Shown: in pieces, positions 4,665 through 42,485 of the stretch
Layout of the letters: the number at the start of each line of letters is the position of its first letter
Numbering within the stretch: position 1 is the stretch's first letter
Source of the DNA: a virus
Length of the DNA: 44,939 bases
Direction: 5' to 3' (one strand)
Virus record (IMG/VR): IMGVR_UViG_3300020152_000008
Coordinates: 1-44,939 of that record
Translations under genes and position numbers: made by a program
The notes under the pieces: generated by a model
Database searches by the model: none
What the model saw: only the letters and a program-made list of their open reading frames with translations
What the model was told of the DNA's origin: nothing

Positions 4665-4675
4665 GGAGGATGACC

Positions 4676-8750: not shown

Positions 8751-9792
8751 GCGCACGGGCGACCTGACGAACGCCGCCGAGGTGGCGCGGATCCAGGCTG
8801 ACGCGAAGGCGCTGTATGCCGAACTCGAGGCCGCCCGTCGCGGCGAGCCGGTGAAGCAGGGCCGCACCTTCGAGACGCTGGCCGCATCCTGGCGCCGCAC
8901 CGACGAATACCGCGATCTCAAGCCGAGGACGCAGACCGGCTACGAGGAGAACGTGCGCCGGATCGAAGCCTGGTCGGAGGCATGCGGCCACCCGGACCCG
9001 GCCCGGCTGACGCAACAGGGCGTGCGCGCCTTCTTCGCCGAGTTCGATGATCGGCCGTGGGTGAAGTGGCACGTCCGCAAGGTGCTGCGCATCCTGATGA
9101 ACCATGCCGTCGCCGTCGGCTGGAGGGCGGACAATCCCGTCGAGGGCATCCGGGTCAAGATGCCGAAGTCCACCGTCGCGATCTGGGAGCCGGAGGACGT
9201 CGAGGCCTATGCCTGGGCGGCCATCGGCGCCGGTCAGCCGGACCTCGCGGGCGTGATCATGATGGAATGGGAGATCGGCCAGCGGCTCACCGACGCGATC
9301 CTCTTCCGGCGTGGGGCCGAATACGAGGCCGCTGAGGGCGTGTTCCGGTTCTGGCAGTCCAAGACCAACAGCTACGTCACCATCCCCGTCAGCGACCGCC
9401 TACGGGCGATTCTGGCCCATCTGAAGCGCGACGGCTCGCCGTACCTGTTCCACGACGGCGGAACCGGCCGGCCCTTCCGCGACGTCAACCGCCTCGGCCA
9501 CGTCTTTGAAGAGGTGCGCGACCGTCTGGTGCTGCCCTCGTTGCCGGACACCCGCACGTCTGAGGAGCAGGAGGACCACCCGGTGCACGAGCGGCATCGC
9601 GTCCTGCGGGCCCTGCGCCACAGCTGCGTCGTCCAGCTGGCCCGCTACGGCTGCACGGTCCCCGAAATCGCCAGCATCACCGGCCACAGCATCCAGACCG
9701 TCGAGAGCATCCTGTCGACCTACCTGCCGCGTGATAACGTCGTGGCCTGGAACGCCCAGCGGAAGCGCGGGCTGATCAAGGAGAGCGCATGA
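8566..9792 (+). CDS. int: Tyrosine-recombinase integrase
   Basis: 408 residues (395 if the ATG at 8605 is used). It has an arm-binding N-terminus, a SAM-like core-binding domain at about residues 98-190, and a catalytic domain at about 205-400. Catalytic residues visible: Arg240 (GQRLTDAI), Lys266 (WQSKTNS), Arg351 (LRALRHS), His374 (TGHSIQT) and nucleophile Tyr386 (STYLPRD). The box II position normally His (HxLR) is Arg348 here. It integrates the phage at a tRNA-Pro gene, judging from the attP about 250 bases downstream. It overlaps the excisionase-like gene heavily, as lambda xis and int do to a lesser degree. Confidence 0.93.
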   Translation: MPTNNQTRGPSIQMPTVKLSLGKFVVALAPRADGTRRVLFQVPPRLRPSGWSPTIPLPRTGERTGDLTNAAEVARIQADAKALYAELEAARRGEPVKQGRTFETLAASWRRTDEYRDLKPRTQTGYEENVRRIEAWSEACGHPDPARLTQQGVRAFFAEFDDRPWVKWHVRKVLRILMNHAVAVGWRADNPVEGIRVKMPKSTVAIWEPEDVEAYAWAAIGAGQPDLAGVIMMEWEIGQRLTDAILFRRGAEYEAAEGVFRFWQSKTNSYVTIPVSDRLRAILAHLKRDGSPYLFHDGGTGRPFRDVNRLGHVFEEVRDRLVLPSLPDTRTSEEQEDHPVHERHRVLRALRHSCVVQLARYGCTVPEIASITGHSIQTVESILSTYLPRDNVVAWNAQRKRGLIKESA

Positions 9793-10043: not shown

Positions 10044-10087
10044 CGGGGCGTAGCGCAGCCTGGTAGCGCATCTGCTTTGGGAGCAGA
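10044..10087 (+). other. Probable attP core: 5' half of tRNA-Pro(UGG)
   Basis: These 44 bases reproduce the 5' half of a proteobacterial tRNA-Pro: acceptor strand CGGGGCG, the unpaired TA, D-arm GCGC-AGCCTGGTA-GCGC, and a complete anticodon arm TCTGC-TTTGGGA-GCAGA with anticodon TGG at 10078-10080. No variable loop, T-arm or pairing 3' acceptor strand follows, so it cannot be a functional tRNA. It lies in a 206-base gene-free stretch next to int. It is best read as the region of identity with a host tRNA-Pro gene through which the phage integrates. The 5' half rather than the more usual 3' half is carried. Confidence 0.8.
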
Positions 10088-11819: not shown

Positions 11820-12148
11820 TTGCTGGGGTCCACTTCGACGGGGGGCTGGTCGGGGTTCATCGGCGGCATGGGCGCCGTGCCGAATCCAAAGCCGCCGCCG
11901 AACAGGCCGCCGCGGGCCTGGGTCACGGCGACGCCGACCTTGCCGAGCTCTCCGGCCAACTCGAGCAGGGCCAGCTTCTGGTCGCGGCCGACCGACAGGA
12001 ACACGAGCGTCAGGATCGCCACGGCCGGGAACGGCGCGATCATCCAGACCGTTTCGGCCGACGCGCGATGAGCGCAGTAGGAGAGCAGCAGGAAGTTCGC
12101 GATCCCGCCGGCGAACGTGCAGAGGTGCAGGACGGTCGGGACCCGCAT
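11816..12148 (-). CDS. Putative holin, two-helix membrane protein
   Basis: 110 residues. Two hydrophobic helices (about 4-24 and 34-52) joined by a short polar loop with HRASAET, a charged middle and a Gly/Pro-rich C-terminus. Position between tailspike and endolysin, coupled to both by short overlaps, is where a holin is expected. With the single-helix protein at 10467 there are two holin candidates, possibly holin and antiholin. Family not recognised. Confidence 0.55.
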   Translation of the reverse strand: MRVPTVLHLCTFAGGIANFLLLSYCAHRASAETVWMIAPFPAVAILTLVFLSVGRDQKLALLELAGELGKVGVAVTQARGGLFGGGFGFGTAPMPPMNPDQPPVEVDPSK

Positions 12149-15100: not shown

Positions 15101-15438
15101 CTGTTCAGCGTGTTCGACGAAAGGGCGCCGGTCGCGCTGAAGTCGGTATCCCGGTCCAGCACCACCATCCGGTCGACGATGACGGTCTTGTTGGTGACGC
15201 CGGCGTTGAGGGTGACCCGGCCGGAGCCGTAGCCGCCGACAACGGTCGTGGCGCCCTGGAGGTTGTAGCCGGTGACGGTGTAGGTCGACGGGTCGCGGAG
15301 AACGCCGTCGACGTAGACGATGATGTCGCCCGACTCCCAGAACGGGAACGCGAAATCGAAGTTCACCGTCGAGCTTCCGCCGACGCTGAACGTGACCGGG
15401 CAGGGGGGATCGCCCGTGATTTTGACGTGCTCGGTCAT
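12148..15438 (-). CDS. Tailspike/tail fibre with T7-type N-terminus and SGNH hydrolase
   Basis: 1096 residues. Residues about 5-130 match the T7 tail-fibre N-terminal domain that attaches to the tail tube. Residues about 165-300 are Ala/Thr/Glu-rich helical repeats, a trimeric coiled-coil shaft. Two related domains of about 150-170 residues follow (about 383-533 and 549-716). The C-terminal quarter is an SGNH/GDSL hydrolase: Ser833 in GDSLT, Asn961 in GTND, and Asp1071-His1074 in DTIH. Such enzymes remove acetyl esters from capsular or O-antigen polysaccharide, so this is probably both receptor binder and deacetylase. A candidate late element lies 34 bases before the start. Confidence 0.9.
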   Translation of the reverse strand: MTEHVKITGDPPCPVTFSVGGSSTVNFDFAFPFWESGDIIVYVDGVLRDPSTYTVTGYNLQGATTVVGGYGSGRVTLNAGVTNKTVIVDRMVVLDRDTDFSATGALSSNTLNSDLDRLTAREQDLKRQADRTLLVPYGEDGFVLPTAAARAGTVAIWGDDGLSFDTDRTLTAFDAAVASASTNAATAVTQAGVATAAAATATSEAADAADSADSASTSAGTATTQAGIATDKADEAATSATAAATAETNAETAQAAAETAQAAAEAAQAGAETAEANATATVANRADLTFSNVVDTATARQNLGVEIGADVLAYDATVQAWAGVTVAADKGLYATGADAFATFDLTAFSRSIQAETDAAGWRETLGAAPTTAGYARNEFYNSLDPEHPDIILFSGNVSDSFTATELTDLGFTTGVERGSNSAAIYAINLADELTGTEYIFARVYVQAASAGAFGTPRIFFYTEAGATHGNNNLTLETEFSSTVRSYIFNAQVDPARVTAKRIGLGVSAAPAGLIMGAGQFAIRPFPIEGIDLEDYGGVPTLSAASLAAKPDVEDTAAENMFRAGNYPDQASKSSLNAYADVTDSDLTALGLTRGVTQGGVETSILYGESISRTLIGNEYYFARVYVETGTADDFGTPRLYFYKGRGAQLADSVNMTLEEKFSSTAAVYTCEGQVDSDVIGANWMGVGCASAFSGLIVCGGQFAVSPRRIRALNVGDYPVIGDANEPIYPTHLFLREGRRLPFYPQNVMQRRADEHDPVVAGFCSLRTTPDRYAASYEPAGQIVIDADECGAAGTFDFRQADRGYSNRRRVDVTILTAPATDTGSPNLLFIGDSLTNRGTADLVRQKMEAAGLTPSFIGTLVGRDESGTNQDGTDGEGREGKKATEYVYIDTTLPPVAPGDEATYQADSHANKVNQNPFLKADDASYDPGVVQNGYAFDMAFYLSRFSYADPDAVIICLGTNDITDDFESAPALIEQSLEIMIDQTRAALATAKILVWFPCQPRSSNGDARWERGHRETIELLNTLIRNKRAGGDSNVYFVPVYAHMSAEVGWEITGTADADTGVLHAAISDTIHFGEGALREQMVEVLTNAIMAVT

Positions 15439-26109: not shown

Positions 26110-27045
26110 TTAGGCGGTGATCGCCGCGTCGGTGATCGACGACAGGCGGATGGCGGCGAAGGGGTGCTCGATGCGGATGCCGCTGTCCCACTCGATGCGG
26201 GTCAGCAGCTTCGGCTCGGACTGCATCTCGCCGAGATCCTTGGCGTCCATCGGCGCGGCCTGGAAGCCTGAGAACTTGCCGTCCTTGATCGACAGGACGT
26301 AGATCGACGTGGTGACGGCCGAGCCGCCGCCGGAGCCGACTTCATCGAAGGCGAGCAGAGGGGTGTCGGCCTCTTCCTCGTAGCCGACCAGGATCGGCAG
26401 GCGGCGGTAGGACGTGATCGTGTTGCCGAAGTCGTCCTTGGTCTGGTCGACGTAGCCGCCGACGCCGGTGTTGCGGCCGGCCTGGGTCAGGCGGTCGCGC
26501 ATGGCCTTCGGCATCAGGATGTGCGTCGGTTCCGAGCAGGTCGAGATGGCGCGGTCGAGCTTGTAGAGCGACAGCGCGGCGCCGCCCGAGGCCGCCGAGT
26601 TCGTCAGCGAGGACGAGCCGGTGATGCGGCGCTTCAGGCCGTCGAACTCCTTGGGGTTCGTGGCGTTGTTGCCGTTCAGGATGGTGCTGGAGACGCCCTT
26701 CACGAGCGCCTTGATCTGCATCTGCTCCTGCTGGGTGCGCTTCGCCTCGCCGTGGCGACGGATCAGGGCCTTGTCGACCTTGATTTCGCCGCCCGAGATG
26801 AAGGTCTGCTCGATCAGCGGGTTGATGACGCCGGTCGTGGCCGTGTAGCTCTCGTTGATGCCGCGGAAGGCGACGCCCGGAAGCGTGTTCTCGCGGTCGT
26901 AGCGGTAGAGACCGCCGGGGACGGTCTCGAACGGAATGGCCCGGATCAGGTCCGATTCCTTCGCGTACATTTCCACGTAGGCCCGCTCGGACGAGTCCGC
27001 CGGCAGGGTCTTCGCGTATTCGGGCAGAGTCAGAGCAGTCGCCAT
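26110..27045 (-). CDS. Major capsid protein (HK97 fold)
   Basis: 311 residues. It follows the scaffold gene and precedes the cement-like gene. The N-terminal arm (LTLPEYAKTLPADS), an E-loop-like stretch, NPKEFDGLKRRI, and the C-terminal ILSIKDG-type strand with IEWDSGIRIEHPFAAIRLSSI match the short HK97-fold capsid proteins of podoviruses with no protease domain. There is no delta-domain, which agrees with a separate scaffold gene. Confidence 0.85.
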   Translation of the reverse strand: MATALTLPEYAKTLPADSSERAYVEMYAKESDLIRAIPFETVPGGLYRYDRENTLPGVAFRGINESYTATTGVINPLIEQTFISGGEIKVDKALIRRHGEAKRTQQEQMQIKALVKGVSSTILNGNNATNPKEFDGLKRRITGSSSLTNSAASGGAALSLYKLDRAISTCSEPTHILMPKAMRDRLTQAGRNTGVGGYVDQTKDDFGNTITSYRRLPILVGYEEEADTPLLAFDEVGSGGGSAVTTSIYVLSIKDGKFSGFQAAPMDAKDLGEMQSEPKLLTRIEWDSGIRIEHPFAAIRLSSITDAAITA

Positions 27046-27918: not shown

Positions 27919-28198
27919 CGGTCGCCTTCAGCTTCGCTTCAGCCGTCGCCCGGAGGCTTCGGAATGTGCGGCACAGCGTCCGTTGACCTTCGATAAGCAA
28001 CAATGCACCCGTGTCCGGGGCCGTCGGATCGACCGACATCTGCTCGATGCGGTCGCGGCTGTAGTCGAGCAGGGCCTGGAAATCCTCGCTCTGCGACAGG
28101 CGCAGCATCGCCGACCAGAACTGGCGCTGCTCCGGCGTCAGCGGGGCCATCGCCTTGCCGTGGCGCGCGCTCTCGACTGCGCTCCATCGCCCCGTCAT
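27893..28198 (-). CDS. Hypothetical protein between portal and scaffold
   Basis: 101 residues, helical (LTPEQRQFWSAMLRLSQSEDFQALLDYSRDRIEQMS). It overlaps portal by 4 bases and scaffold by 26. A small protein at this place occurs in related podoviruses. A late element (28001-28011) lies inside its coding sequence and is read as DTGALLL in this frame. Confidence 0.65.
   Translation of the reverse strand: MTGRWSAVESARHGKAMAPLTPEQRQFWSAMLRLSQSEDFQALLDYSRDRIEQMSVDPTAPDTGALLLIEGQRTLCRTFRSLRATAEAKLKATDERSGGQG
28001..28011 (-). promoter_or_regulatory. Late element copy b
   Basis: Minus-strand CGGGTGCATTG inside the 27893-28198 gene, 83 bases upstream of the scaffold start. It would allow extra expression of scaffold and capsid, the most abundant products. 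Confidence 0.5.
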
Positions 28199-29754
28199 TG
28201 CGGCGCGGCTTCCGGTGCGCCGGGCGGCGCGGTCTCAAGGCCGGGCGCCATGCCGGGCTGTCCGAGGACGCCGCGGAGCAACTGGTCGGCCGCCTCCGGA
28301 TCGCGGATTGCCACGGCCTCGTCGTTGAAGAGCTTCTTCAGGTTCTCGATGGTCGGGCCGGCGTCGACGATGGAGGCCGTGACCTCGGGCCCGAACACCT
28401 GCTTGATCGTCTCCAGCAGGATGCGGCTGTTGTTCGCCTTCTCGAAATCCTGCTGCAGGGCGAGCGGGTTCAGCGGGCGGAGGCGGACGAACTTCTGCTT
28501 GTCCTTGATCTGCAGCACCTCGGCCAGCTTCCCGGCCTTCTGCAGCATGTATTCCGTCCGCTCGACGACGGCGATCACGCCCTCCTCGAACAGGCGGCCG
28601 GTCGGCATTTCGAGTCGGCGGCCCTGCTCGCCCTTCTCGTCCATCCACTGGCCGAGGGTCGGGGGGGTGAGCCCCTTCTGGCGCGGGCCGGACTGGAACG
28701 CGGCGCGGCGAATCTTGTCCCGGATGGTCCCCTGCTCGAAGAAGGCGAGCTCCAGACGGCCGCCCTCCCAGAAGTCGACGCTGGAACCGGCCTGGCGCGC
28801 GATCGCCATGCCGGCGTCGAGGCCGGCTTCCAGGTTGATCACGTTGTCGTCGTCGTAGAAGAACGGCGGGTCGACCTGCTTCCCGAGGTTCTTCAGCACC
28901 AGGTACTCGAGCTGATCGAGCACCCGCGCATCCGGGACCGCCTTCAGCAGCGGGCCGTAGCCCCAGGGCGTGGTCGAGAACGTGCGCCAACGCGTGACGA
29001 TGATCGGGCAGCAGCCGCGACCGCGCAGTTCTTCCTCGTGGATCAGGAAGCCATCGACGCAGACCTGCCACTTCCAGACCTCATCGCCGGGGTCCGGGAC
29101 CAGCGTCGCCGCCTCGGTCAGGATGACCTTCTTGCACTTGCCCTGCGGGGTCAGCGCCTCGCGCTTCAGTTTCTCGGGCCAGGCGTAGTCGGGCCAGTAG
29201 GCGATCAGTTCCGCGAGCTCATGGCAGGATTCGCGGGCCTTGAAGTTCAGGCCACGGGCGCCGCGGCCGATCAGCAGCTGGCCCGGCGCGATGGCCTCCC
29301 AGTAGTGCGGCTGGCCCTTGCCGGGATCGTAGCCGATGATGGCGCTGGTGCCGTGGCCCTGGTCCCAGGCCCATTCGCCGGCCGCCTCGCGGTAGAAGTT
29401 GGAGCTCCGGATCGCGGCGAAGATCGACTTCGTGCGCGTCTCCAACGGCTCCTGGATGACCTTCGCCTCTTCCTGCGACAGGGTCTCGATCGGCTCGTAC
29501 TTCAGCCAGTCCTTGTCGCGCGGCATCGCCCGCTGCAGCAGGTCGGAGGCGAAGTCCTCGCCCGATTCCTCCAGCTGGGTGTCGAAGCGGTCGTCCACCT
29601 CCTCGCTGCGGTTCGAGGGCGAGGTGAGGCTGTCGCCGATGCGGGGGCGCACCGGGTCGGCGTACTTCAGGTAGCCGTTTATGAGGCCCTGGACGTTCGA
29701 GCGTTCGGTCTTCGCTCGCGCGATGCGGGCCTGGAGATCGGCGGGGACCTTCAT
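28195..29754 (-). CDS. Portal protein (T7-type head-tail connector)
   Basis: 519 residues, near the T7 gp8 length. N-terminal helices (RARIARAKTERSNVQ type), the conserved middle SAIIGYDPGKG and YWEAIAPGQLLIGRG, WGYGPLLKAVPDARVLDQLEYLVLKNLGKQVDPP typical of the T7-like portal family (PF12236), and a disordered Ala/Pro tail. It forms the dodecameric DNA channel and terminase docking site. Confidence 0.88.
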   Translation of the reverse strand: MKVPADLQARIARAKTERSNVQGLINGYLKYADPVRPRIGDSLTSPSNRSEEVDDRFDTQLEESGEDFASDLLQRAMPRDKDWLKYEPIETLSQEEAKVIQEPLETRTKSIFAAIRSSNFYREAAGEWAWDQGHGTSAIIGYDPGKGQPHYWEAIAPGQLLIGRGARGLNFKARESCHELAELIAYWPDYAWPEKLKREALTPQGKCKKVILTEAATLVPDPGDEVWKWQVCVDGFLIHEEELRGRGCCPIIVTRWRTFSTTPWGYGPLLKAVPDARVLDQLEYLVLKNLGKQVDPPFFYDDDNVINLEAGLDAGMAIARQAGSSVDFWEGGRLELAFFEQGTIRDKIRRAAFQSGPRQKGLTPPTLGQWMDEKGEQGRRLEMPTGRLFEEGVIAVVERTEYMLQKAGKLAEVLQIKDKQKFVRLRPLNPLALQQDFEKANNSRILLETIKQVFGPEVTASIVDAGPTIENLKKLFNDEAVAIRDPEAADQLLRGVLGQPGMAPGLETAPPGAPEAAPQ

Positions 29755-30080: not shown

Positions 30081-30430
30081 GGCTTGAAGACCTGTCTCGC
30101 GCCTGAGCGGAGAAGGTCGCGCCTCAGCCCCCCGGGGAACAATGCACCCGAACGGAACCCCAGCAGCCGCTTGATCTCGGCGACGCACAGCCAGCCGGTC
30201 GTGAAGCGCGGTCGCCGGTCGGAAACCTCGGCCCTGACGATGAAGGCGCGCTTCGCCAGGCGACGAAGCCAGCGGTGGAACACCCGCGTCGTCATCGTCG
30301 AAACGGCCGTCCGGCGCGTGGCCGGGTCGATCACCACCCAGACGCTCGTCGCCGGGTCGAAGCTGAAGGCGAGGCAGTGCGTCGGCCGCTCGGCGGGGAT
30401 GAAGGCCACGTTCCAGGAGGTGATGCTCAC
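30077..30430 (-). CDS. Hypothetical protein after large terminase
   Basis: 117 residues, coupled to TerL by a 4-base overlap. The first 60 residues are beta-rich (SVWVVIDPATRRTAVSTMTT) and the rest is basic with a helix RWLRRLAKRAF. Late element copy c lies near its end. No family recognised, although a small gene here is common in podoviruses of this layout. Confidence 0.65.
   Translation of the reverse strand: MSITSWNVAFIPAERPTHCLAFSFDPATSVWVVIDPATRRTAVSTMTTRVFHRWLRRLAKRAFIVRAEVSDRRPRFTTGWLCVAEIKRLLGFRSGALFPGGLRRDLLRSGARQVFKP
30140..30150 (-). promoter_or_regulatory. Late element copy c
   Basis: Minus-strand CGGGTGCATTG, 60 bases before the GTG of the 29754-30080 gene and upstream of portal. 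It lies within the end of the 30077-30430 coding region. Confidence 0.5.
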
Positions 30431-31944
30431 CGCCGGAACACCGCCATGCGGCCCGCGGGCTTGGGCCCCCGGAACATCGGGTTCACGGCGCGCAGGGTGT
30501 TGATCGGCGGCGGCTTCTCGGTGCGCCCGATGGTGATCCGACCTTCACCCAACCCCATCAGCGGCTCGATGCTGGCGTCCACCGGGTGCGAGAAGACGTT
30601 CTTCAGCGGCACGTCCTCGTAGGTCGGCGTGCCGGAGACCTTCTTGCGCTTGTAGCAGTAGCCGCCGGCCATGCCGGTCGTGAGCGTCGGGCAGCGGATG
30701 GGGTCGTAGACGATGGCCGGCTGGCCGTTGACCATCCGGTTCAGCATCGCCGTCATCGTTTCGAGACGGATGCCGCGACGGCCGGCGGTGTCGGCCTTGC
30801 GCACCGTCATGCCGTACTTCTCGAAGATCCCGAACGCGGTCTGGTCGTCGGTCTCGCCGCGGGGATTGTCGCCCGACGGGTCGCCCCAGAACCGGACCTC
30901 GAACCCCGGAAACCACTCGGCGAGCCGGCGCTTCACCATCGGCGCGAAGGTCTCGGCGCCCATGCCGGAGCCGGTGACCTCGCCCAACACCAGCCAGCGG
31001 CCGTTGACCTGCTGCATGAACACCGCGGCGGGCTGGCGGCCGAAGTCGAGCCCGACGTCGATCGGGTAGCCCTTCACCGGCTGGAGCGGGACCTTGGAGA
31101 TGTGCGTGTCCCGGGTGAACATCGGGAACACCGCGCGGCCAGGCTGGAGCAGGGTCACCCGATTCATGAGATCGGCGTCGATCTCGTCCGTGGTCCGGCC
31201 GTCGAGCAGTTCGAACACGGACCGCTCGCCGACGATGTTCAGGTTCTCGGCCTCTGGGTTGATCTTGTAGGACAGCACTGCGCCGTGCTGGTCCTTCTCC
31301 TCGATGAACCAGGCCGGCTGCGTCAGGAACTCCCAGTCGGGCGGCTTGACCAGCGACCGGCGCTCGCGGTCGGTCATCTCCTCGGGGATCGGCGCGTCGC
31401 CCCGCATGATCGGCACCCAGTGGCCGAGCGGCGGGGCGTTCATGTCCATCTGCAGGAACTTCGGGCCGCCGGGCAGAGGGTACCAGCCGGTGCGCTCGTA
31501 GACCGCGACGCAGAACTTCCGGCTGTAGAACTGCGCCTCGTTGATCCAGGCGCCGGTGTACTCCCGCGACTTCAGGCTCGGGATATCCTCCTCGCCGGCG
31601 AAGCTCTCGAACTCGACCGTGGCCTCGACGTCGCCGAAGCGCATCTCGTGGCGGTAGGGCGGAGTGTTGTAGAACCGGCCGTAGACGTCCTCGGGGAACC
31701 ACTCGAGCCAGGTCTTGATCGTCGAGGCCAGCAGGTCGGGGTAGCTGTTCCGGATCACCAGCCAGCGCGAACGCCGCTTCCCCCGCGTTTTCGGGACCGC
31801 CATCATCGCGGCGTAGATGCGCATGATGGAGGCGACGGACTTCCCGCTGCGGACCGGGCCCTGGATGCAGATCACCGAGGCCGTCGACAGCAGGTAGCGC
31901 CGCAGCGTCTCCCCGTCCGGCCTGTACCGGCGCTGTTCGCTCAC
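30427..31944 (-). CDS. terL: Large terminase subunit
   Basis: 505 residues. ATPase: Walker A GPVRSGKS (29-36), catalytic Glu136 in GAWINEAQF (Walker B region), and arginine-rich segments between. Nuclease (RNase H fold): Asp296 and Asp300 in IDVGLDFG and Asp355 in FWGDPSGDN. Cuts concatemers and pumps DNA into the prohead. It is separated from the small subunit by about 2.8 kb of accessory genes. The gene preceding it ends 3 bases upstream. Confidence 0.93.
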   Translation of the reverse strand: MSEQRRYRPDGETLRRYLLSTASVICIQGPVRSGKSVASIMRIYAAMMAVPKTRGKRRSRWLVIRNSYPDLLASTIKTWLEWFPEDVYGRFYNTPPYRHEMRFGDVEATVEFESFAGEEDIPSLKSREYTGAWINEAQFYSRKFCVAVYERTGWYPLPGGPKFLQMDMNAPPLGHWVPIMRGDAPIPEEMTDRERRSLVKPPDWEFLTQPAWFIEEKDQHGAVLSYKINPEAENLNIVGERSVFELLDGRTTDEIDADLMNRVTLLQPGRAVFPMFTRDTHISKVPLQPVKGYPIDVGLDFGRQPAAVFMQQVNGRWLVLGEVTGSGMGAETFAPMVKRRLAEWFPGFEVRFWGDPSGDNPRGETDDQTAFGIFEKYGMTVRKADTAGRRGIRLETMTAMLNRMVNGQPAIVYDPIRCPTLTTGMAGGYCYKRKKVSGTPTYEDVPLKNVFSHPVDASIEPLMGLGEGRITIGRTEKPPPINTLRAVNPMFRGPKPAGRMAVFRR

Positions 31945-31947
31945 GGG

Positions 31948-32493
31948 TTACGCCTTCCGGACTGCCATGCAGGGAACGACGGTCGTGAAGGCCAGCGTCG
32001 GCGGGGTTGCGGGCAGGGCGCCGTAGGCCTGCGTGCCGATGTAGCCGCGGCCGGTCCCGGCGAACGACGGCTGGCCGACCGTGTAGCCGCCGGCGCCGAG
32101 CGCCCCCGTCGTCACCGTTGGCGTGCCCTCGAAGATCATGCCGACCCAGATCCATTCCGGCAGGGTGAAGTCGGCCGCCAGCGCGACCTCATCGATCTCG
32201 GCGGCGTTGTGGTCGGTCGTGCCGGCGTCCTGGATCAGGTCGCCCGGCATCCCGTCGGCGTTGTTGGCGTAGAGGCCCATGCGGACGGAGCCGACCGCGC
32301 CGACGGTCGTGTTGACCGCCAGCCGGTTGATGACCAGGCCGGGGTTGCGGAACGGCTGCATGTAGAGCCGGCCCGCCGTGACCGCGGCCGTACCGGTCCC
32401 GGGCGTGGCGATCTGGTTGAAGAAGTAGCGGGTGGCGATGGCCGTGCCGGGGCCGACGAACGGCTTCATGCCGGGCTTGTCGACGCCCATCAT
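31948..32493 (-). CDS. Hypothetical structural-type protein
   Basis: 181 residues, beta-rich with many Gly/Thr (GTAAVTAGRLYMQPF, SVRMGLYANNADGMPGDLI, TLPEWIWVGMIFEG). The pattern resembles jelly-roll domains in phage fibres and base structures. It overlaps the next upstream gene by 1 base. Probably a minor virion or host-contact protein; no family named. Confidence 0.65.
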   Translation of the reverse strand: MMGVDKPGMKPFVGPGTAIATRYFFNQIATPGTGTAAVTAGRLYMQPFRNPGLVINRLAVNTTVGAVGSVRMGLYANNADGMPGDLIQDAGTTDHNAAEIDEVALAADFTLPEWIWVGMIFEGTPTVTTGALGAGGYTVGQPSFAGTGRGYIGTQAYGALPATPPTLAFTTVVPCMAVRKA

Positions 32494-32858
32494 CAGCTGA
32501 GTTCCGTGATGCGGGCGTTGCCGGTGGCGCTGGCCCAGATGCCGGACACGGCGCCGGTGTAGCCGTCGAAGTTGAACGCCTCGTCGGCGGCGAGCTTGGC
32601 GGTGTAGTTGGTGGCGCTCGCGGTCTCGCCCAGGGCGACGTAGAGGACGGCGGTCGAGTCGTTGACGATCCGGGCCGACTTGCGGTCGGTGTTCGCCGCC
32701 AGCAGCGACACGGCGCTGGCCGACGCGGCGACGGTCGTGATCGAGCCGGCGGATGCGACCGGCAGGCCGTCAGCGGCCGGGTCGATGACCGTCCCGTCCT
32801 CGCGCCGCGGAACGACGCCCTGGTAGGGGGTCTCGGTCGAGAGTTCGATGTCCGCCAT
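32493..32858 (-). CDS. Hypothetical structural-type protein
   Basis: 121 residues. A conserved phage pattern: SAVSLLAANTDRKSARIVNDSTAVLYVALGETAS followed by FNFDGYTGAVSGIWASATGNARITEL. Proteins of this kind are small beta-sandwich virion or fibre-associated proteins. A late element lies 49 bases upstream of its ATG. Confidence 0.7.
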   Translation of the reverse strand: MADIELSTETPYQGVVPRREDGTVIDPAADGLPVASAGSITTVAASASAVSLLAANTDRKSARIVNDSTAVLYVALGETASATNYTAKLAADEAFNFDGYTGAVSGIWASATGNARITELS

Positions 32859-32906
32859 GCCGGCCTCCAGAGAGGCTGCAAGGGTCGGGCAGGGCGGTCA
32901 GGTCAG

Positions 32907-32917
32907 GAATGCACTCG
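32907..32917 (-). promoter_or_regulatory. Late element copy d
   Basis: Minus-strand CGAGTGCATTC, 49 bases before the 32858 start, in a 168-base gene-free stretch. A perfect inverted repeat CGGACGG/CCGTCCG (32914-32933) abuts it on the upstream side. Confidence 0.55.
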
Positions 32918-33026
32918 GACGGTTGCCCGTCCGGCGGACCTCCCGTATCTTGCTCGCGCACCTTCGGGACCGGACGCGGCCGGTGCAGGGGTGGCCCGCT
33001 AACAGCGCCCCTGCTGCGCCCGGATC

Positions 33027-33224
33027 ATGACCCAGCCCACCCCCTGCTACTGCGGCCGGCCGCGCACCGTCGCGCCGACGGAGCCCTGCCCTAGCTGCGG
33101 CGAGCGCCTCGACGTCCCGAACGTCGTCGGCTCGGTCGAGCACGACCGGAAGCAGGCGAAGAAGGCTGAGACGTTCCTGCGGGTGACGTTGGCGGCGAGC
33201 ATCAGGGACGAAACAACCTCTTGA
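33027..33224 (+). CDS. Small putative zinc-ribbon protein
   Basis: 65 residues, rightward inside the leftward late region. CYCGRPRTVAPTEPCPSCGERL gives two CxC/CxxC knuckles, so it may be a zinc ribbon. Its RBS is weak and its end overlaps a small leftward gene by 23 bases. Composition looks protein-like and no leftward frame over it is better. Confidence 0.45.
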   Translation: MTQPTPCYCGRPRTVAPTEPCPSCGERLDVPNVVGSVEHDRKQAKKAETFLRVTLAASIRDETTS

Positions 33225-33321
33225 GCGCCGAGCCGAGCGCGCTGAGGAAGATCGCCAAGCCGAGACCGCCCCAGAAGAGCGCGCCGGCAACACGCAGCAC
33301 GTCGTGAGCCCATTCTGGCAT
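33202..33321 (-). CDS. Tiny membrane protein (39 residues)
   Basis: MPEWAHDVLRVAGALFWGGL then GLAIFLSALGSALKRLFRP: one hydrophobic helix with charged ends, ATG start 7 bases after the sulfotransferase stop. Too short for ordinary calling. Position and composition favour a real gene. Confidence 0.45.
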   Translation of the reverse strand: MPEWAHDVLRVAGALFWGGLGLAIFLSALGSALKRLFRP

Positions 33322-33328
33322 GTTCCGC

Positions 33329-34111
33329 CTACCGGTACTGCGAATCCAGCGGCATCCCCCACTGCTCCATCACGACGTTCAGGTTCCTGCCCCGGTCCCC
33401 GAACGCCTCCCGCGCCACGGCGACGTCCTCGCGGGTGAGCTCGTTCTTCCACTGGCCGATGGAGCCGTTCCTCGCCAGCGGGACCGTGAACGTGCGGTGC
33501 AACATCTCCTGCTCGGCCGCCCGGTACTTGTCCGCCGAGATCGCCTCGATGGTCTCGTCCACCAGGGTGTCGTCGATCGGCTGGCCGATGAACGCCAGCA
33601 TCTGCCGGAAGGTCGCTCCTGGATCCGTCACCAGATCCTCGTAGTGGAGATGCAGGGCCTTGCGGTCGGTGCGCTTCAGCTTGTCCAGCGAGCGGTCGTC
33701 CACGGTCCAGCGGCGGGCGTAGGTGTCGACCACGGCGCTGATGTTGGCGACGTGGTGCTCCTCGTCGACCCGGCCGGCGTGGCGGTAGTGGTACTGGCTG
33801 ACGATGTAGTCGAGCGGGTTGCGGCGCAGGGTGATGATCCAGCCCGGGAACTCCTGCAGCAGGCCGAACGCATGCTGGACCACGATGTCCCGGATGCCTT
33901 CGGGCAGCGGCCCGGTCGGCTTGTAGGCCACGCCGCGGCGCATGTAGTCGTAGCGCCGGTTCGGATACTCCCGGTCCGCGTTCTTGCCGAACAGGACCGG
34001 GCCCTCGATCCCGATCAGGCGCCGGAGATAGTTGACCAGGAAGTGGTGCGTGTAGTGCGTGCCCGCCTTCGGCATCGTCGCCAGGCAGACGAAATCGGTC
34101 TCGTCGATCAC
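33329..34111 (-). CDS. PAPS-dependent sulfotransferase
   Basis: 260 residues from GTG 34111, chosen for the GGGGGAG site just upstream. An upstream GTG at 34144 would add 11 residues across a hairpin. PAPS-binding 5' loop MPKAGTHYT (13-21), equivalent to PKSGTT in the family. 3'-phosphate site LRRNPLDYIVSQYHY (95-109), equivalent to RDPRDVVVS. C-terminal PAPS loop NGSIGQWKNEL (215-225). It would move sulfate from PAPS to a hydroxyl or amine of an unknown acceptor. Full length and intact motifs suggest activity. Such genes are rare in dsDNA phages; placement among late genes suggests virion or host-surface modification. Confidence 0.88.
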   Translation of the reverse strand: MIDETDFVCLATMPKAGTHYTHHFLVNYLRRLIGIEGPVLFGKNADREYPNRRYDYMRRGVAYKPTGPLPEGIRDIVVQHAFGLLQEFPGWIITLRRNPLDYIVSQYHYRHAGRVDEEHHVANISAVVDTYARRWTVDDRSLDKLKRTDRKALHLHYEDLVTDPGATFRQMLAFIGQPIDDTLVDETIEAISADKYRAAEQEMLHRTFTVPLARNGSIGQWKNELTREDVAVAREAFGDRGRNLNVVMEQWGMPLDSQYR

Positions 34112-34119
34112 TGTGGAAG

Positions 34120-34134
34120 CTCCCCCGTGGGGAG
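34120..34134 (-). other. Hairpin before sulfotransferase
   Basis: CTCCCCCGTGGGGAG, a near-perfect 6-bp stem with a 3-base loop just upstream of the chosen start. No T run follows, so it is not a classical terminator. It could modulate translation or be part of the RBS (GGGGGAG on the minus strand). Confidence 0.4.
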
Positions 34135-34166
34135 AGCCTAACACCGCTACTCGCCAGACGGGAAGC

Positions 34167-34256
34167 CTAGCCGTTCACCATCCAGAGCCAGGCGCTGAGA
34201 AACCCGGCCGCCAGACCGCAGCAGAACCACGCGCGTCTGAGGGCGTGCCGGGACAT
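34167..34256 (-). CDS. Tiny membrane protein (29 residues)
   Basis: MSRHALRRAWFCCGLAAGFL then SAWLWMVNG: a short basic start and one transmembrane helix. It overlaps the end of the 34175-34405 gene in another frame. Support: protein-like pattern, and late element g lies 33 bases before its ATG, the same spacing as copies a and e. Confidence 0.35.
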   Translation of the reverse strand: MSRHALRRAWFCCGLAAGFLSAWLWMVNG

Positions 34257-34405
34257 CGGTCGAGATTGGACCCGACGGCCCCGGCACGGAACGCACCCGA
34301 CGGCGGCGGCGCACCCAGCGGAAGCTTGCCGGCCTCGACCGCCGCCCAGAGCAGGAGGCCGACGAACATGCCGAGGACGAACCCGATGACCGCGGCGGCG
34401 ATCAT
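34175..34405 (-). CDS. Small membrane protein
   Basis: 76 residues, N-terminal transmembrane helix (MIAAAVIGFVLGMFVGLLLW) followed by AAVEAGKLPLGAPPPSGAF, a plan common in small phage proteins. The last 30 residues look like shadow sequence of the overlapping 29-residue gene. ATG overlaps the upstream stop (ATGA). Confidence 0.55.
   Translation of the reverse strand: MIAAAVIGFVLGMFVGLLLWAAVEAGKLPLGAPPPSGAFRAGAVGSNLDRCPGTPSDARGSAAVWRPGFSAPGSGW
34289..34299 (-). promoter_or_regulatory. Late element copy g (variant)
   Basis: Minus-strand CGGGTGCGTTC, differing from the consensus at one base. It lies inside the 34175-34405 frame, 33 bases upstream of the 29-residue gene and 178 upstream of the sulfotransferase. 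Confidence 0.4.
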
Positions 34406-34608
34406 GCACCAGGCTCCGGCGCCGCGGACCCGATCACGTAGGCCTTCCAGTAGCCCTGCGTGTAGTTGGCGACGACCGCGCCAAGGCCGCCCTGCGGTGC
34501 GTACGCCCGGACGATCAGCGTGCCGTCCGGCTCCTTCGAGATCGTCGAGTTCTCAAACCGCTGCCAAGTCCCCTCGGCAGTGCGGATCGCCCAGGTCTGT
34601 GGATCCAT
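34402..34608 (-). CDS. Hypothetical protein
   Basis: 68 residues, beta-rich (TWAIRTAEGTWQRFENSTISKEPDGTLIVRAYAPQGG). It could be a single small beta domain. It follows TerS after a 104-base gap that is G-rich on the plus strand and holds no recognisable feature. Family unknown. Confidence 0.6.
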   Translation of the reverse strand: MDPQTWAIRTAEGTWQRFENSTISKEPDGTLIVRAYAPQGGLGAVVANYTQGYWKAYVIGSAAPEPGA

Positions 34609-34712
34609 GGTCAGTGCTCCAAGGGGTGGGGGTGAAGGAAAATCCGGGAACGGGTTGATGGGCGGGTCAGTGAATGGAGGGGTGGGTGGGCGAAGTCTTG
34701 GGAGGGAGGCCC

Positions 34713-35393
34713 CTAGGACCGCTCGGCGGCCCGGTTTTTCCCCCGGGGGTGGCCTCCGTCCGCCGGGGGCCTGTCGTGCTCGGTGCGGGCAAGGGGCTCG
34801 AGGTCCAGGACCTGCGTCGATTCATGGCTCCCCTCGACCGTGTGACCCTGTGCCAGTCTGACGGTTTGCTGTGATTGCAGTGCGTTGGCGCCTCGGGCCA
34901 CCTGCTCGCTAGGCAGTCCGGTCAGATCCACGATGACCAGGCGCTTCGTGATGTCGATGTTGTGGTTCACCTCGACCCGCTCCCTGTACTCGGCGAACCG
35001 GGCTCGCATGACCTGAGCCCACGCGCCGGCCGGGAACTTGTTGTCACGGGTCGCAACGGCCTTGCGCGCTTGGGTTTCCCACCATGCCTGAGCTGCTGAG
35101 CGCGCGCGTGCGAGGGCTGCGTCGAACGCCTTATGCGCCTCTCCCCACTCCCTGAGCACCTCGACCGACTGCGCCCAGTGGTGGGCGATCTCCTGCGGCG
35201 TCATGCCGAGGGCTCCGAGCTCGACGACCTCATCGCAGAGCTCAGGCCTGTAGGTTTCGGGTTCGGTGCGGCGCTCGGTCTCGGGCTGCCAGCGTTCGCC
35301 GCCGTCCTCGCGGGCAGCTTCCAAGGCCCGGTTGTGCTTGCGCCCGCCGGGGCGGGGCTTCGGGTGCTGGCGGGGGGCTGCCTGGGCTGCCAT
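34713..35393 (-). CDS. terS: Small terminase subunit
   Basis: 226 residues. Basic Pro-rich N-terminus (PGGRKHNRALEAAREDG), an HTH at about 48-90 (RPELCDEVVELGALGMTPQEIAHHWAQSVEVLREWGEAHKAF) and helices AAQAWWETQARKAVA, the pattern of phage DNA-packaging small subunits. The C-terminal third has VEVNHNIDITKRLVIVDLTGL and a disordered end. It recognises phage DNA for TerL. Unusually, six or seven small genes lie between it and terL. Confidence 0.8.
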   Translation of the reverse strand: MAAQAAPRQHPKPRPGGRKHNRALEAAREDGGERWQPETERRTEPETYRPELCDEVVELGALGMTPQEIAHHWAQSVEVLREWGEAHKAFDAALARARSAAQAWWETQARKAVATRDNKFPAGAWAQVMRARFAEYRERVEVNHNIDITKRLVIVDLTGLPSEQVARGANALQSQQTVRLAQGHTVEGSHESTQVLDLEPLARTEHDRPPADGGHPRGKNRAAERS

Positions 35394-35478
35394 CGGGGCG
35401 GGTGTCTCTGCGGTTGCTGGCGGGCTTCATGTTCGGTGGAGGACCGCGCGCGAGGTTCGGCGGGTCTGGTGCGGCCTC

Positions 35479-35489
35479 CAATGCACTCG
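35479..35489 (-). promoter_or_regulatory. Late element copy f
   Basis: Minus-strand CGAGTGCATTG, 86 bases before the TerS start, in the 108-base gap between TerS and the small basic gene at 35502. Confidence 0.5.
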
Positions 35490-35501
35490 CGGGCCGATTT
35501 G

Positions 35502-35663
35502 CTAAGTGCTTGGTCTCGTTGCGAGATATGCCATGGCCTCATCCAGGGCCGTTTCGGGGTCGTGTCCCTTTTCGGGGTGATTCACCGCTGATCTCGCCTG
35601 TTCCCGGCGCCGTTCCGCGGCTCGCCTGATCGCCCGTTTCCGCTTCAGCGCGTCCTTGTGCAT
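35502..35663 (-). CDS. Small basic protein upstream of terS
   Basis: 53 residues. MHKDALKRKRAIRRAAERRREQARSAVN is strongly basic and helical, then an acidic helix (PETALDEAMAYLATRP). Late element e lies 35 bases before the ATG, as expected for the first late gene. Possibly nucleic-acid binding; no family recognised. Confidence 0.5.
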   Translation of the reverse strand: MHKDALKRKRAIRRAAERRREQARSAVNHPEKGHDPETALDEAMAYLATRPST

Positions 35664-35697
35664 GGCCTGCAGCCTACCTGTCGGGACTGGAGCCGTG

Positions 35698-35708
35698 GAA
35701 TGCACCCG
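35698..35708 (-). promoter_or_regulatory. Late element copy e
   Basis: Minus-strand CGGGTGCATTC at the upstream end of the whole late region, 35 bases before its first gene, in a 181-base intergenic stretch shared with the rightward promoter at 35780. Confidence 0.55.
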
Positions 35709-35779
35709 CCCCAGGCGACAGGCTGGCCCTTATCCGTCAACGGTGCGTGACTGATTACGGGCTGCTGCGTCGCTTTGGG

Positions 35780-35808
35780 TTGACACGGAGGCACGATCCT
35801 GTCATCTA
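35780..35808 (+). promoter_or_regulatory. Putative rightward promoter for the 35.8-37.1 kb island
   Basis: -35 TTGACA (35780-35785), 17-base spacer, weak -10 CATCTA (35803-35808), with the start codon 37 bases on behind a GGAGGG site. The consensus -35 and spacing make it the best sigma-70-type promoter seen in an intergenic region here. Confidence 0.5.
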
Positions 35809-35844
35809 TGGCTTACGGCAACACCGCCGAACCGGAGGGACACA

Positions 35845-36045
35845 ATGACGATCTTCGAAGTCAACGCCTGGGTGAAGGAGGGCTGCAACTCCTACGCTGC
35901 GCACTGCATCCCGCCTGCTGGGTATGAGCTCCGCATCACCGGCTACCGGGTGCGCCGGCCTGATGGCTCGACCGTCCGTCCGGCTTACCCCCCGTTCAAG
36001 ACGCGCGACGAGGCGGAAGCCTACGTCGCCTCGCTGGAGGGCTGA
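35845..36045 (+). CDS. Hypothetical protein
   Basis: 66 residues with strong RBS (GGAGGG). Single small alpha/beta domain: EVNAWVKEGCNSYAAHCIPPAGYELRITGYRVRRPDG, ending FKTRDEAEAYVASLEG. First gene of the rightward island. No family recognised. Confidence 0.65.
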   Translation: MTIFEVNAWVKEGCNSYAAHCIPPAGYELRITGYRVRRPDGSTVRPAYPPFKTRDEAEAYVASLEG

Positions 36046-36047
36046 AC

Positions 36048-36446
36048 ATGGCCAAGCGCATCATCAACGCGTTCAACGCCGACCACGAGGCTTTCCCGCT
36101 CACGATCACGACCCGCCGGGTTCAGTGGGGCTGGGAGGCGACCAGCGAGGCCAGCATCTGGAACATCGGGAACGGCCCGATCTACCCCACCTCGCGGGAG
36201 GCCTTGGACGCCTACCAGGCCCACGTTGAGGCTTCGTGCGAGCGCCGCGGCTGGAACCGGCCGAAGGATCAGGCCCGCACACTGACCGACTGGATTCAAG
36301 CCTGCCGCGCTTATCTCGACGCCATCGGCGAGGTTGACCGCCCGGAGCTGCACCAGGAACTCGCGGACGTGCTCGGCATCCCGCTGCGGAACGTCCAGAC
36401 CTTCAGCATGTACGGACGCCTTGGCGCGTCGCCGAAAGGGGTATGA
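36048..36446 (+). CDS. Hypothetical protein
   Basis: 132 residues, 2 bases after the preceding stop. N-terminal beta part with WGWEATSEASIWNIGNGPIYPTSREALDAYQAH and a helical C-terminal half ending in a possible HTH-like pair (HQELADVLGIPLRNVQTFSMYGRL). Function unknown. Confidence 0.65.
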   Translation: MAKRIINAFNADHEAFPLTITTRRVQWGWEATSEASIWNIGNGPIYPTSREALDAYQAHVEASCERRGWNRPKDQARTLTDWIQACRAYLDAIGEVDRPELHQELADVLGIPLRNVQTFSMYGRLGASPKGV

Positions 36447-39660: not shown

Positions 39661-41066
39661 CGCCGCACCTCGACCGCGTCCATATCCTGGATCGCGTTGC
39701 AGCCGATGTCGCAGAACGCCTTTGCCATGCCGGTGCGGCCGCCGCGGTTCTTCTCGACGTAGAAGTGGATCTCGAACCGCTGATCCTTCAGCCGGTTGAA
39801 GCGATCCCAGCCCTTCACGTCCTCGGCGTCCTCGGGCTCCCGGGCGTAGTAGGCCGGGCGGTAGAGGAAGGTGACGGAATTGGCGTCCTGCTCGAGCTCA
39901 CCGGCCCAGCGCAGATCGCTCAGGGTCGGGCGCTTGTCCTCGCGGCCCTCGTTGGCGCGCGACAGCTGACAGAGACCGATCACCGGCAGGCCCGTGGCCT
40001 TGGCGATGTGCATCATATCGCCCGAGATGGCGCCGGTGTCCTGTACGCGGGATCCAGTGAAGTGCTCGGGCGCGGCGTGGCCCAGGTGGTCGACGATGAT
40101 CAGGCCGTCGAGCAGGCCCGCACGATGCCAGCGGCGCTTGAGCCTGCGCGCGGCCGCCAGGATCTGCGACGGCTTCAGCTTCGACCGGAAATCCAGGTGC
40201 ACCGGCAGCGTGTCGAACACGCCTTTCGCCCGCTCCAGCCGGTCCCACTGCGCCGGCTCGAGCTCGTTGCTCTGGAACGCCTCGTAGGTCGGGCAGGACG
40301 AGACGCCGTTGAAGTACGGGGCCATGCGGTCGAAGGCGATGGAGGCCGGGAAGCGATAGGGCAGGGTGTCCTCCGGCTCCTCGAGCGAGAAGACGCCGAC
40401 GCCGCGGCCCTGACGCGCGACGTTGATCACCAGCTGGACCAGCCAGGCCGTCTTACCCATGCCCGGGCGAGCGGCGATCAGGTTGAAGGTGCTGGCCTTG
40501 TAGCCGCGCAGGATCTTGTCGAGGTCGTAGATGCCGGTGGCGATGCCGGCCATGCCCGAGCGGGTGCGCGCCGCGGCATAGGCCCGGTCCATCACCTCGG
40601 CGATCGGCCGCCACGCATCCCGCGTCGGGCCGTCGGACGCCATTTCCTGCAGCCGCTTCTCCGCGTCCGCCAGCAGCGCCTCGACGGCCTCGCCCTTCTT
40701 CGCACGGTCCGACACCTCGGCGCCGAAGTCCCGCAGCGTGCGGGCGAGGGCGGAGTCGCGGACCTCCCGGGCGAAGTCCGCGATCACCGACGTCGGCGGC
40801 GCCCGGTCCATCAACTCGGCCAGGAACGGCATGCCGAGCTCGGCATAGGCCGGATCGCCCGCCAGGGCCCCGCCCAGCAGGGTCGGATCGCTGGACCGGC
40901 CGTCGCGCGCCCGTTCCTGCATCAGCGCCCAGAGGCGGCCGTGGAAGGGCTCAGCGAAGTGCTCCGGCCGGACGTCCTCGCACCGCTCCATCACGGCGGA
41001 ATCGAACATCGCCGCGCCCAGCAGCGCGTGTTCCGCCTCCAGGCGGGTGAGGGTGGCTTCGGTCAT
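39657..41066 (-). CDS. DnaB-like replicative helicase
   Basis: 469 residues. N-terminal DnaB domain (about 5-110: LEAEHALLGAAMFDSAVMERCEDVRPEHF), linker, then RecA-fold motor with Walker A ARPGMGKT (199-206), Walker B GLIIVDHLGH (321-330, Asp326), and the DnaB-type H3 and H4 segments (GLCQLSRANEGREDKRPTLSDLRWAGELEQDANSVTFLYRP). It unwinds the fork for host polymerase. No phage primase is visible, so it likely uses host DnaG. Confidence 0.9.
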   Translation of the reverse strand: MTEATLTRLEAEHALLGAAMFDSAVMERCEDVRPEHFAEPFHGRLWALMQERARDGRSSDPTLLGGALAGDPAYAELGMPFLAELMDRAPPTSVIADFAREVRDSALARTLRDFGAEVSDRAKKGEAVEALLADAEKRLQEMASDGPTRDAWRPIAEVMDRAYAAARTRSGMAGIATGIYDLDKILRGYKASTFNLIAARPGMGKTAWLVQLVINVARQGRGVGVFSLEEPEDTLPYRFPASIAFDRMAPYFNGVSSCPTYEAFQSNELEPAQWDRLERAKGVFDTLPVHLDFRSKLKPSQILAAARRLKRRWHRAGLLDGLIIVDHLGHAAPEHFTGSRVQDTGAISGDMMHIAKATGLPVIGLCQLSRANEGREDKRPTLSDLRWAGELEQDANSVTFLYRPAYYAREPEDAEDVKGWDRFNRLKDQRFEIHFYVEKNRGGRTGMAKAFCDIGCNAIQDMDAVEVRR

Positions 41067-41527
41067 GCCTCCGCCGCCACCAGCGCGTCGATCTTCTCGG
41101 CGGCTTCCGGCTTGATCGCCCAGCCCCGGCCCCAGAGGGTTTCGATGGCGCCGGGGACGCCGGCCGCCTTGAGCGCAGCCCTGATCTTGCAGATGTAGAC
41201 CGCGGGCAGGTTCACCCCGCAGTCGGCCGAGATCGCGCACTCCTCGAATGCCCGCTCCCGGGGGATGATCTGCCCCCGACGCTCCATCATGAGCATCAGC
41301 AGACGCAGGGCTTGCGGGGCGAGCTTCGTGGCCTTCCGCAGGGCCGCCATCTGCGTCAGGTCGTCGGCGCTGACGTCGGCCGGTGCGTGCACGTCATCCA
41401 GGTCCGCCAGCAGCCCCCACGCGAACCGCTTGGCCTCGCTCTCGGGCACATGCACGCTGGCGCCGGGTCCGAACGTGACCAGCACGCGGCCGTCGTCCAG
41501 CATCTCGTGACGGAGGCGGGCGGTCAT
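41063..41527 (-). CDS. Winged-helix DNA-binding protein (PhoB/OmpR C-terminal type)
   Basis: 154 residues. The C-terminal 80 residues match a Trans_reg_C winged helix: LAPQALRLLMLMMERRGQIIPRERAFEECA, then VYICKIRAALKAAGVPGAIETLWGRGWAI, equivalent to the recognition helix and wing of response regulators. There is no receiver domain, so activity is not set by phosphorylation. Overlaps the helicase and HTH genes by 4 bases. A good candidate for activator of the late elements (inference). Confidence 0.75.
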   Translation of the reverse strand: MTARLRHEMLDDGRVLVTFGPGASVHVPESEAKRFAWGLLADLDDVHAPADVSADDLTQMAALRKATKLAPQALRLLMLMMERRGQIIPRERAFEECAISADCGVNLPAVYICKIRAALKAAGVPGAIETLWGRGWAIKPEAAEKIDALVAAEA

Positions 41528-41733
41528 GCGCGGGCCCTCCCATCGAGGGCCGGGTCGCGGCGGTTGAGCAGCTGAACCGCGTCGCAGGTCCGCCGGCCGA
41601 GCTTCACCCAGAGCGCATAGTCGAGCTCGGGCGGGGTGACGCCCGCGAGTTCCGCGCTGTCCGCGAGCGAGACCCCGCGACCGATCCGATCGACGGCCAT
41701 GGTCAGGCGCGGCGTTGTCCACACGCCGTTCAT
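41524..41733 (-). CDS. Small HTH-like protein
   Basis: 69 residues. TMAVDRIGRGVSLADSAELAGVTPPELDYALWVKLGR can fold as a helix-turn-helix (SLADSAELAGVTPPELDYAL). Coupled to genes on both sides. Possible DNA-binding accessory; no family named. Confidence 0.6.
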   Translation of the reverse strand: MNGVWTTPRLTMAVDRIGRGVSLADSAELAGVTPPELDYALWVKLGRRTCDAVQLLNRRDPALDGRARA

Positions 41734-42485
41734 GCCGCCACGTCCCGCCGGCGCTGCGGGCCATCAACCCACGCGGCCAGCTTGTTGAGCGAGCGCTTCT
41801 TCTCCTCGGTGAGCGGCTGATAGGCAGCCCGGTGGTGGACCGGGCAGTAGGTCCCGTTCGCCTCGCGCCCGCAGAACCCGAAAGCCGCCTCCTGCGGGTC
41901 GCCGATCGGCCACTTGCAGACACCGGTGCGCAGGTCCGCGAACGTGGCCGTGGGCGTCAGGGCCTCGGGCGCAGGGACGAACGCCACGACCGGCTCGGCG
42001 GCCTCCTTGAGCACGCGCAGGCGGTTCTTCGATGCGGCGCCGAGAGGGTTCTGGACCCGGGGAACGGCGGGGGCCCTGAGGGCGCGGTTCGGACTGGCCG
42101 GCCTGCCGCCACTCCGGGCGTTGTTGATCCGTGCGAATTCGGGCGAACGAGACCAGCCCTCGCGGTGAGCGATCCCGATGACGCCGCAGCGCGTGGTGCC
42201 GTTCCCCATCTGCTTGGCGACCTGAGTCGCTGACAGGCCCTCCGTGATGTAGAGCCGGTGCGCCTCTGCAGTGCGTTCCTTCGTCCACTTCGTGGTCGGC
42301 CTTCCGACCGAGGACTCGCGCGTGATCGTCGGTCCCAGCGGGCCGGCGCGGAGGAGTCGGATGCGAGGGGCGATGACGTGTGCCTTCACCCCGATGCGGA
42401 AGGCGATCTGGCCGTCCGAGAGGCCGAGGTTCCAGAGCGAGATCATCTGCTCATCGCGTTCGCGAGGCACGGGTTTGGCAGGCAT
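41730..42485 (-). CDS. gcrA: GcrA-family cell-cycle regulator with extra N-terminal HTH
   Basis: 251 residues, versus about 170 for bacterial GcrA. Residues 67-113 match the GcrA DNA-binding segment (WTKERTAEAHRLYITEGLSATQVAKQMGNGTTRCGVIGIAHREGW). Residues 189-225 match the conserved C-terminus that binds the sigma-70 factor, with CKWPIGDP, FCGR and YCPVHHRAAYQP. Residues 8-48 (RERDEQMISLWNLGLSDGQIAFRIGVKAHVIAPRIRLL) look like a second, degenerate copy of the same HTH. In Caulobacter GcrA recruits RNA polymerase at GANTC sites methylated by CcrM. A phage copy could redirect host or phage transcription. Confidence 0.85.
   Translation of the reverse strand: MPAKPVPRERDEQMISLWNLGLSDGQIAFRIGVKAHVIAPRIRLLRAGPLGPTITRESSVGRPTTKWTKERTAEAHRLYITEGLSATQVAKQMGNGTTRCGVIGIAHREGWSRSPEFARINNARSGGRPASPNRALRAPAVPRVQNPLGAASKNRLRVLKEAAEPVVAFVPAPEALTPTATFADLRTGVCKWPIGDPQEAAFGFCGREANGTYCPVHHRAAYQPLTEEKKRSLNKLAAWVDGPQRRRDVAA

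Follow-up and report, generated by a model that had tools for sequence, protein, structure and literature searches.

Introduction

The closest described systems for the gene considered here are the cytosolic sulfotransferases (SULTs) of family PF00685, such as SULT1C2, SULT1A1 and estrogen sulfotransferase, together with Teg12, Teg14 and StaL, which sulfate glycopeptide antibiotics. Alphaproteobacteria carry single-domain 'WLASYPKSGNTW' sulfotransferases of about 280 residues, and they also sulfate lipopolysaccharide (LPS), as does S. meliloti through LpsS, an enzyme of the separate Stf0 family (PMC12445080). Papers and predicted-structure libraries record sulfotransferases in OM43 phages, S-SRM01, S-SCSM1, P-SSM7 and glacier and coral phages. 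According to one of these papers, what they do in phage genomes 'remains unclear' (PMC10580990), and our literature search found no phage sulfotransferase with a known substrate. In several phage papers, moreover, "sulfotransferase" denotes the unrelated PAPS reductase family (CysH/DndC-like, PF01507), which shares the name alone with the protein described below and gives no match to it. Here we analyse a sulfotransferase gene in an IMG/VR virus record of 44,939 bases, the whole of which we call the window; its product adds to an already known, uncharacterised group of phage sulfotransferases.

A predicted SULT-fold enzyme with conserved PAPS contacts

The gene occupies positions 33,329-34,111 on the minus strand, with a GTG start at 34,111 and a stop codon ending at 33,329, and encodes 260 residues. 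A first-pass annotation had placed a full-length protein of this size at exactly these coordinates; the strand is here corrected to minus, the plus-strand frame over the same interval being antisense to the gene. A Shine-Dalgarno-like GGGGGAG, as read from the sequence, lies 8 nt 5' of the start codon (34,120-34,126, minus strand), and a second GTG farther upstream, at 34,144, would yield a protein of 271 residues instead. A regulatory hairpin across the start codon was unsupported (z=-1.16), and a scan of 32,850-36,100, confined to sigma-70-like promoters and minus-strand terminators, found neither that could serve the gene on its own.

Family searches and structure prediction confirm the protein as a member of the SULT-fold, PAPS-dependent sulfotransferase class. 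It matches PF00685 (Sulfotransfer_1) with 64.8 bits (E=1.1e-17, curated cut-off 22) and PF13469 with 36.8 bits, these being the only families returned by Pfam, with no match to Stf0; PHROGs, NCBIfam and defence models likewise held no matching family. The nearest solved protein by sequence (phmmer) is human SULT1C2 (E=8.1e-9), in an alignment that spans the P-loop to the GxW motif. An AlphaFold2 model built with viral relatives reached a pLDDT of 78 and a pTM of 0.80 but is weak at residues 41-70, a stretch that possibly lines the acceptor side, and a Foldseek search with this predicted structure returned LGS1, Teg12 and many SULTs (E near 1e-8, TM 0.5-0.66).

The 5'-phosphosulfate-binding P-loop reads MPKAGTHY (P14, K15, G17), the 3'-phosphate-binding motif RRNPLDYIVS (R97, S105), and the C-terminal RxG..GxW loop RNGSIGQWKNEL, with RNGSIGQWK carrying R214, G216 and W221. 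P14, K15, G17, R97, S105 and E158 are invariant across 63 viral relatives, and H80 occupies the column of the KTH histidine, which is His in 61 of 62 of them. The first reading of the PAPS-binding motifs as intact therefore holds for the P-loop lysine, the 3'-phosphate Arg/Ser pair and RxG..GxW. The departures lie in the KTH lysine, which is V78 here and Lys in 60 of 62 relatives (in a loosely aligned stretch), in the P-loop letters GTHY in place of the usual GNTW, and in a change from F to A at residue 213. Because the motifs are kept and the predicted fold matches SULTs, PAPS binding is very likely and catalysis likely, the latter with one unusual active-site change.

How closely does the protein resemble its described counterparts? 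With the cytosolic SULTs it shares the predicted fold, the P-loop lysine, the 3'-phosphate Arg/Ser, RxG..GxW and the KTH-position histidine, but it is only about 20% identical to them, has Val for the KTH lysine and is phage-borne. The alphaproteobacterial 'WLASYPKSGNTW' enzymes are of similar length, have the same motif order and show 20-24% identity across the full alignment, whereas the window protein has GTHY for GNTW and Val for Lys before the histidine, and sits on a separate long branch. The predicted fold also matches Teg12 (E about 1e-8), Teg14 and StaL at 15-19% identity, although the window gene has no antibiotic pathway nearby. Viral SULT-like proteins of IMG/VR, among them those on contigs L099, L104, L107 and L108, belong to the same superfamily and are likewise found among head and packaging genes, yet identity to them is again about 20%. 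The recorded sulfotransferases of S-SRM01 (by annotation alone) and OM43 phages, both PF13469, and of S-SCSM1 and P-SSM7 are phage-borne members of the same superfamily and very distant; structural matches to the last two are weak (E 0.015 and 0.36). The structure comparison proposed at first reading as a route to the acceptor class thus returns the SULT/Teg12 fold, from which the acceptor cannot be read, because enzymes sharing that fold take phenols, sterols, glycans and peptides.

Cargo of a temperate, podovirus-like phage

The sulfotransferase gene lies within a minus-strand operon, between the genes for the terminase small subunit (TerS, 34,713-35,393; phrog_309, E=1.1e-13) and large subunit (TerL, 30,427-31,944; phrog_2, E=8.6e-17). 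Two proteins of unknown function separate it from TerL, one of 121 residues (32,493-32,858; weak matches to phrog_33692 and phrog_30212) and one of 181 residues (31,948-32,493; phrog_25864, E=8.5e-5), both on the minus strand. The same strand continues with a portal-type head-tail connector (28,195-29,754; phrog_332, E=4.3e-25), a scaffold-position protein, the major capsid protein (MCP, 26,110-27,045; phrog_212, E=2.2e-59), tail-tube-position proteins, a transglycosylase protein, a 1364-aa internal-virion-position protein, a tail fibre and an M15-like peptidase. The tail fibre (12,148-15,438, minus strand) ends in a GDSL/SGNH hydrolase domain (PF13472), likely a surface-polymer deacylase or deacetylase. 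Within this otherwise minus-strand operon, a short frame on the plus strand (33,023 onward; start ATGACCCAGCCC...) has CxC/CxxC pairs and a zinc-ribbon-like appearance.

Placement among late genes, as first proposed, is borne out by the terS and terL flanks on the same strand. In codon usage (GC3 0.958, mean log p -0.574) the sulfotransferase gene equals the MCP, portal and TerL genes and is unlike the genes for TerS, a DUF1376 protein and the methylase; we read this as long adaptation to strong late expression. Strand, position and codon usage together point to expression late in the lytic cycle rather than in the lysogen.

The closest relative found, IMGVR_UViG_3300047522_000004 (41,145 bases; includes stretch L008), has the same gene order, with identities to the window of 53% for the integrase, 46% for TerS, 63% for TerL, 57% for the portal, 78% for the MCP, 51-52% for the tail tube and 38-39% for internal proteins. 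A sulfotransferase was found neither in L008 nor in that whole record, where the TerS-TerL interval holds other proteins, and the more distant prophage-like contig G149 (TerL 42%) likewise gave no sulfotransferase match. Since its nearest relative is collinear but lacks the gene, the sulfotransferase is by this comparison lineage-specific cargo, and it is not essential to this type of phage. Absence from a collinear relative is what one expects of a moron-type gene; the promoter and terminator that such a gene would have for itself were not found in the scan described above.

A tyrosine integrase gene (8,566-9,792, plus strand; weak PF13495 match below the curated cut-off) is followed after about 250 bp by an attP-like 44-bp sequence (10,044-10,087, plus strand) that matches the 5' half of tRNA-Pro(TGG) at every position. 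Of 385 alphaproteobacterial genomes, 40 contain this sequence with no more than one mismatch; ARAGORN calls it tRNA-Pro, and the match is common to many alphaproteobacteria. Judged by these features and by its late operon, the phage is temperate, integrating in tRNA-Pro, and podovirus-like. The mid-record position of attP indicates an excised phage form and thus a sulfotransferase that is not host flank. Its capsid relatives occur in Caulobacter, Brevundimonas and Rhizobium phages, and a protein at 41,063-41,923 (minus strand) carries a CtrA-like DNA-binding domain of the response-regulator output type (weak match, 9.9e-6), which hints at the cell-cycle regulator of the host; on these two grounds, the host is probably an alphaproteobacterium. 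The record contains no APS kinase, which supports the early proposal that the enzyme needs PAPS made by the host. It further encodes a homing-endonuclease-like HNH protein with a NUMOD4 motif (7,398-7,946, plus strand) and an N6/N4 DNA methylase (PF01555; 38,644-39,660, minus strand) with a strong PADLOC match to type II methyltransferases.

We conclude that the sulfotransferase gene is genuinely of the phage, as it lies between terS and terL, has the codon usage of structural genes and shares its record with an integrase and an internal attP. A host gene, acquired through misassembly or from the edge of a prophage, for which one can cite the existence of bacterial homologues, is rejected and given practically no weight: beyond the terminase flanks, the codon usage and an attP that is internal rather than at the record ends, there is no close bacterial relative.

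Viral sulfotransferases and their head-gene neighbours

No close relative of the window protein was found by tblastn in 50,697 phage records or by peptide patterns in IMG/VR, and GTDB genomes gave weak partial matches only, with no close bacterial relative; relatives of some kind are present in 59 of 385 alphaproteobacterial genomes. DNA patterns for PKAGTHY led to three more viral sulfotransferases (L066, L070, L071), and those for GQWKNEL and RNPLDYIV to chance matches only. A profile scan of IMG/VR yielded 98 confirmed stretches with superfamily relatives, of which 80 were retained, 70 of them distinct below 75% identity. By these searches, the window protein is an outlier of a superfamily that is itself not rare in phages, and the initial remark that sulfation by dsDNA phages is hardly known was overstated, given these stretches and the published phage sulfotransferases, cyanophages included. 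Taken as a whole, that first reading stands in its enzyme class, late placement and need for host PAPS, and falls short on rarity.

We surveyed the neighbourhood of 68 viral loci and built a tree of 87 sequences. An MCP of family phrog_283 was seen at 25 loci, among which there are 20 places where it precedes the sulfotransferase by one or two genes; phrog_2941 (virion structural) is the gene directly after it in 16 of 18 loci, followed by phrog_3287, and portal and scaffold genes precede. In one clade, which includes contigs L099, L104, L107, L108, L109, L091, L102, L103, L086 and others, the order MCP - (small gene) - sulfotransferase - phrog_2941 - phrog_3287 is fixed, the gene often found between MCP and sulfotransferase being short (about 130-180 aa). 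The MCP-linked label requires two changes on the tree, consistent with two origins. Outside these MCP-linked groups, the sulfotransferase lies directly before the portal in L071, one gene after it in L055 and L092, a short gene after it in L120 and L133, shortly before TerL in L132 and L130, and one gene after a different MCP in L054 and L075. Exceptions are L081, where it is found beside a DNA methylase, and L137, where it is found beside a tryptophan halogenase; at many loci, recognisable neighbours are absent altogether. The L137 halogenase (4,410-5,948; phrog_2928, E=5e-148) is two genes upstream of the sulfotransferase, which suggests small-molecule or peptide tailoring in that phage. Two contigs carry two different sulfotransferase genes each, adjacent in L083 (7,207-8,849) and within 5,441-8,837 in L088.

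Head genes are recognised more readily than any others, and the contigs have common ancestry; the linkage to head genes is thus strong in one clade and suggestive overall. Lying between terS and terL and not behind an MCP, the window gene fits the pattern as a separate sequence outside the MCP-linked clade; its long branch (2.58 changes per site) and lack of close relatives leave its place in the tree unsure. Although the window protein pairs with L071 in the tree (93/78), we claim no common subfamily, the pair carrying a long-branch-attraction warning and a weak BLAST match of E=7e-5 over 37 residues.

Discussion

How might the enzyme act during infection? We consider it likely that the window encodes a late-expressed, cytosolic, SULT-fold PAPS-dependent sulfotransferase, the cargo of a temperate podovirus-like phage whose terS and terL flank its gene. 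We envision that late in infection it would take PAPS made by the host and hold it with K15, R97 and S105 and with the C-terminal RNG..GxW loop, while H80 would activate the acceptor hydroxyl, sulfation taking place in the cytosol. If the enzyme is active, its acceptor might be, as a tentative first candidate, a phage product (a protein of the capsid or tail, a decoration protein, or a glycan on one of these); a host envelope glycan or lipid precursor is about equally likely, and a small cytosolic molecule slightly less so.

The recurrent head-gene placement speaks for late expression and puts a virion product forward as a serious candidate substrate beside host surface glycans. A capsid, decoration or tail component could be sulfated in assembly, a reading that we hold possible, if on balance unlikely. 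It draws on the way viral sulfotransferases recur next to genes for MCP, portal or terminase across lineages that differ in their head genes, and on the fixed gene order kept by one clade. Yet other lineages place the gene beside a DNA methylase or a tryptophan halogenase, the count is biased towards head genes, and the nearest phage has a 78% identical MCP while lacking the sulfotransferase. The head-gene neighbourhood may mean no more than that a strongly expressed operon tolerates insertion at this site.

Phages often modify host surfaces. Conceivably, cytosolic sulfation of an LPS, capsule or lipid precursor would alter receptors and reduce superinfection or the re-adsorption of progeny. 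Alphaproteobacteria do sulfate LPS, as S. meliloti does with LpsS (PMC12445080), and their genomes often hold relatives of the window protein (the 59 of 385 noted above). A late-operon position and late-gene codon usage, however, fit poorly with expression in a lysogen, no membrane or glycan genes adjoin, and Pfam, as far as it goes, places the protein outside the Stf0 family, although the same function could still be served through its own family. We regard this reading as unlikely. A block to superinfection, raised in the first-pass annotation, is a possible role that is not favoured over others, because the position of the gene does not suit expression in the lysogen.

The protein might instead be degenerate or repurposed, binding PAP(S) after loss of sulfate transfer, for example as a nucleotide sink or sensor. 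The missing KTH lysine, the odd P-loop letters, the change from F to A at residue 213 and the long branch could be read in this way, but every invariant PAPS contact and H80 are retained, the frame is intact and the codon usage is that of strongly expressed genes, so we give this alternative little credence.

Returning to the late-expressed, PAPS-dependent sulfotransferase that we prefer, a broader proposal is that SULT-type sulfotransferases have been drawn time and again into the head-assembly modules of tailed phages, where they sulfate components of the phage's own virion. We advance it as a speculation that is quite unlikely to hold. If true, it would amount to a phage post-translational modification system so far undescribed, with the window gene as one independent instance, and virion sulfation would alter capsid charge, stability or receptor binding. 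Phage sulfotransferases recur in surveys; the linkage to head modules is the part worth following, since it applies to the whole group of genes and could help to tell a role in the virion from one at the host surface.
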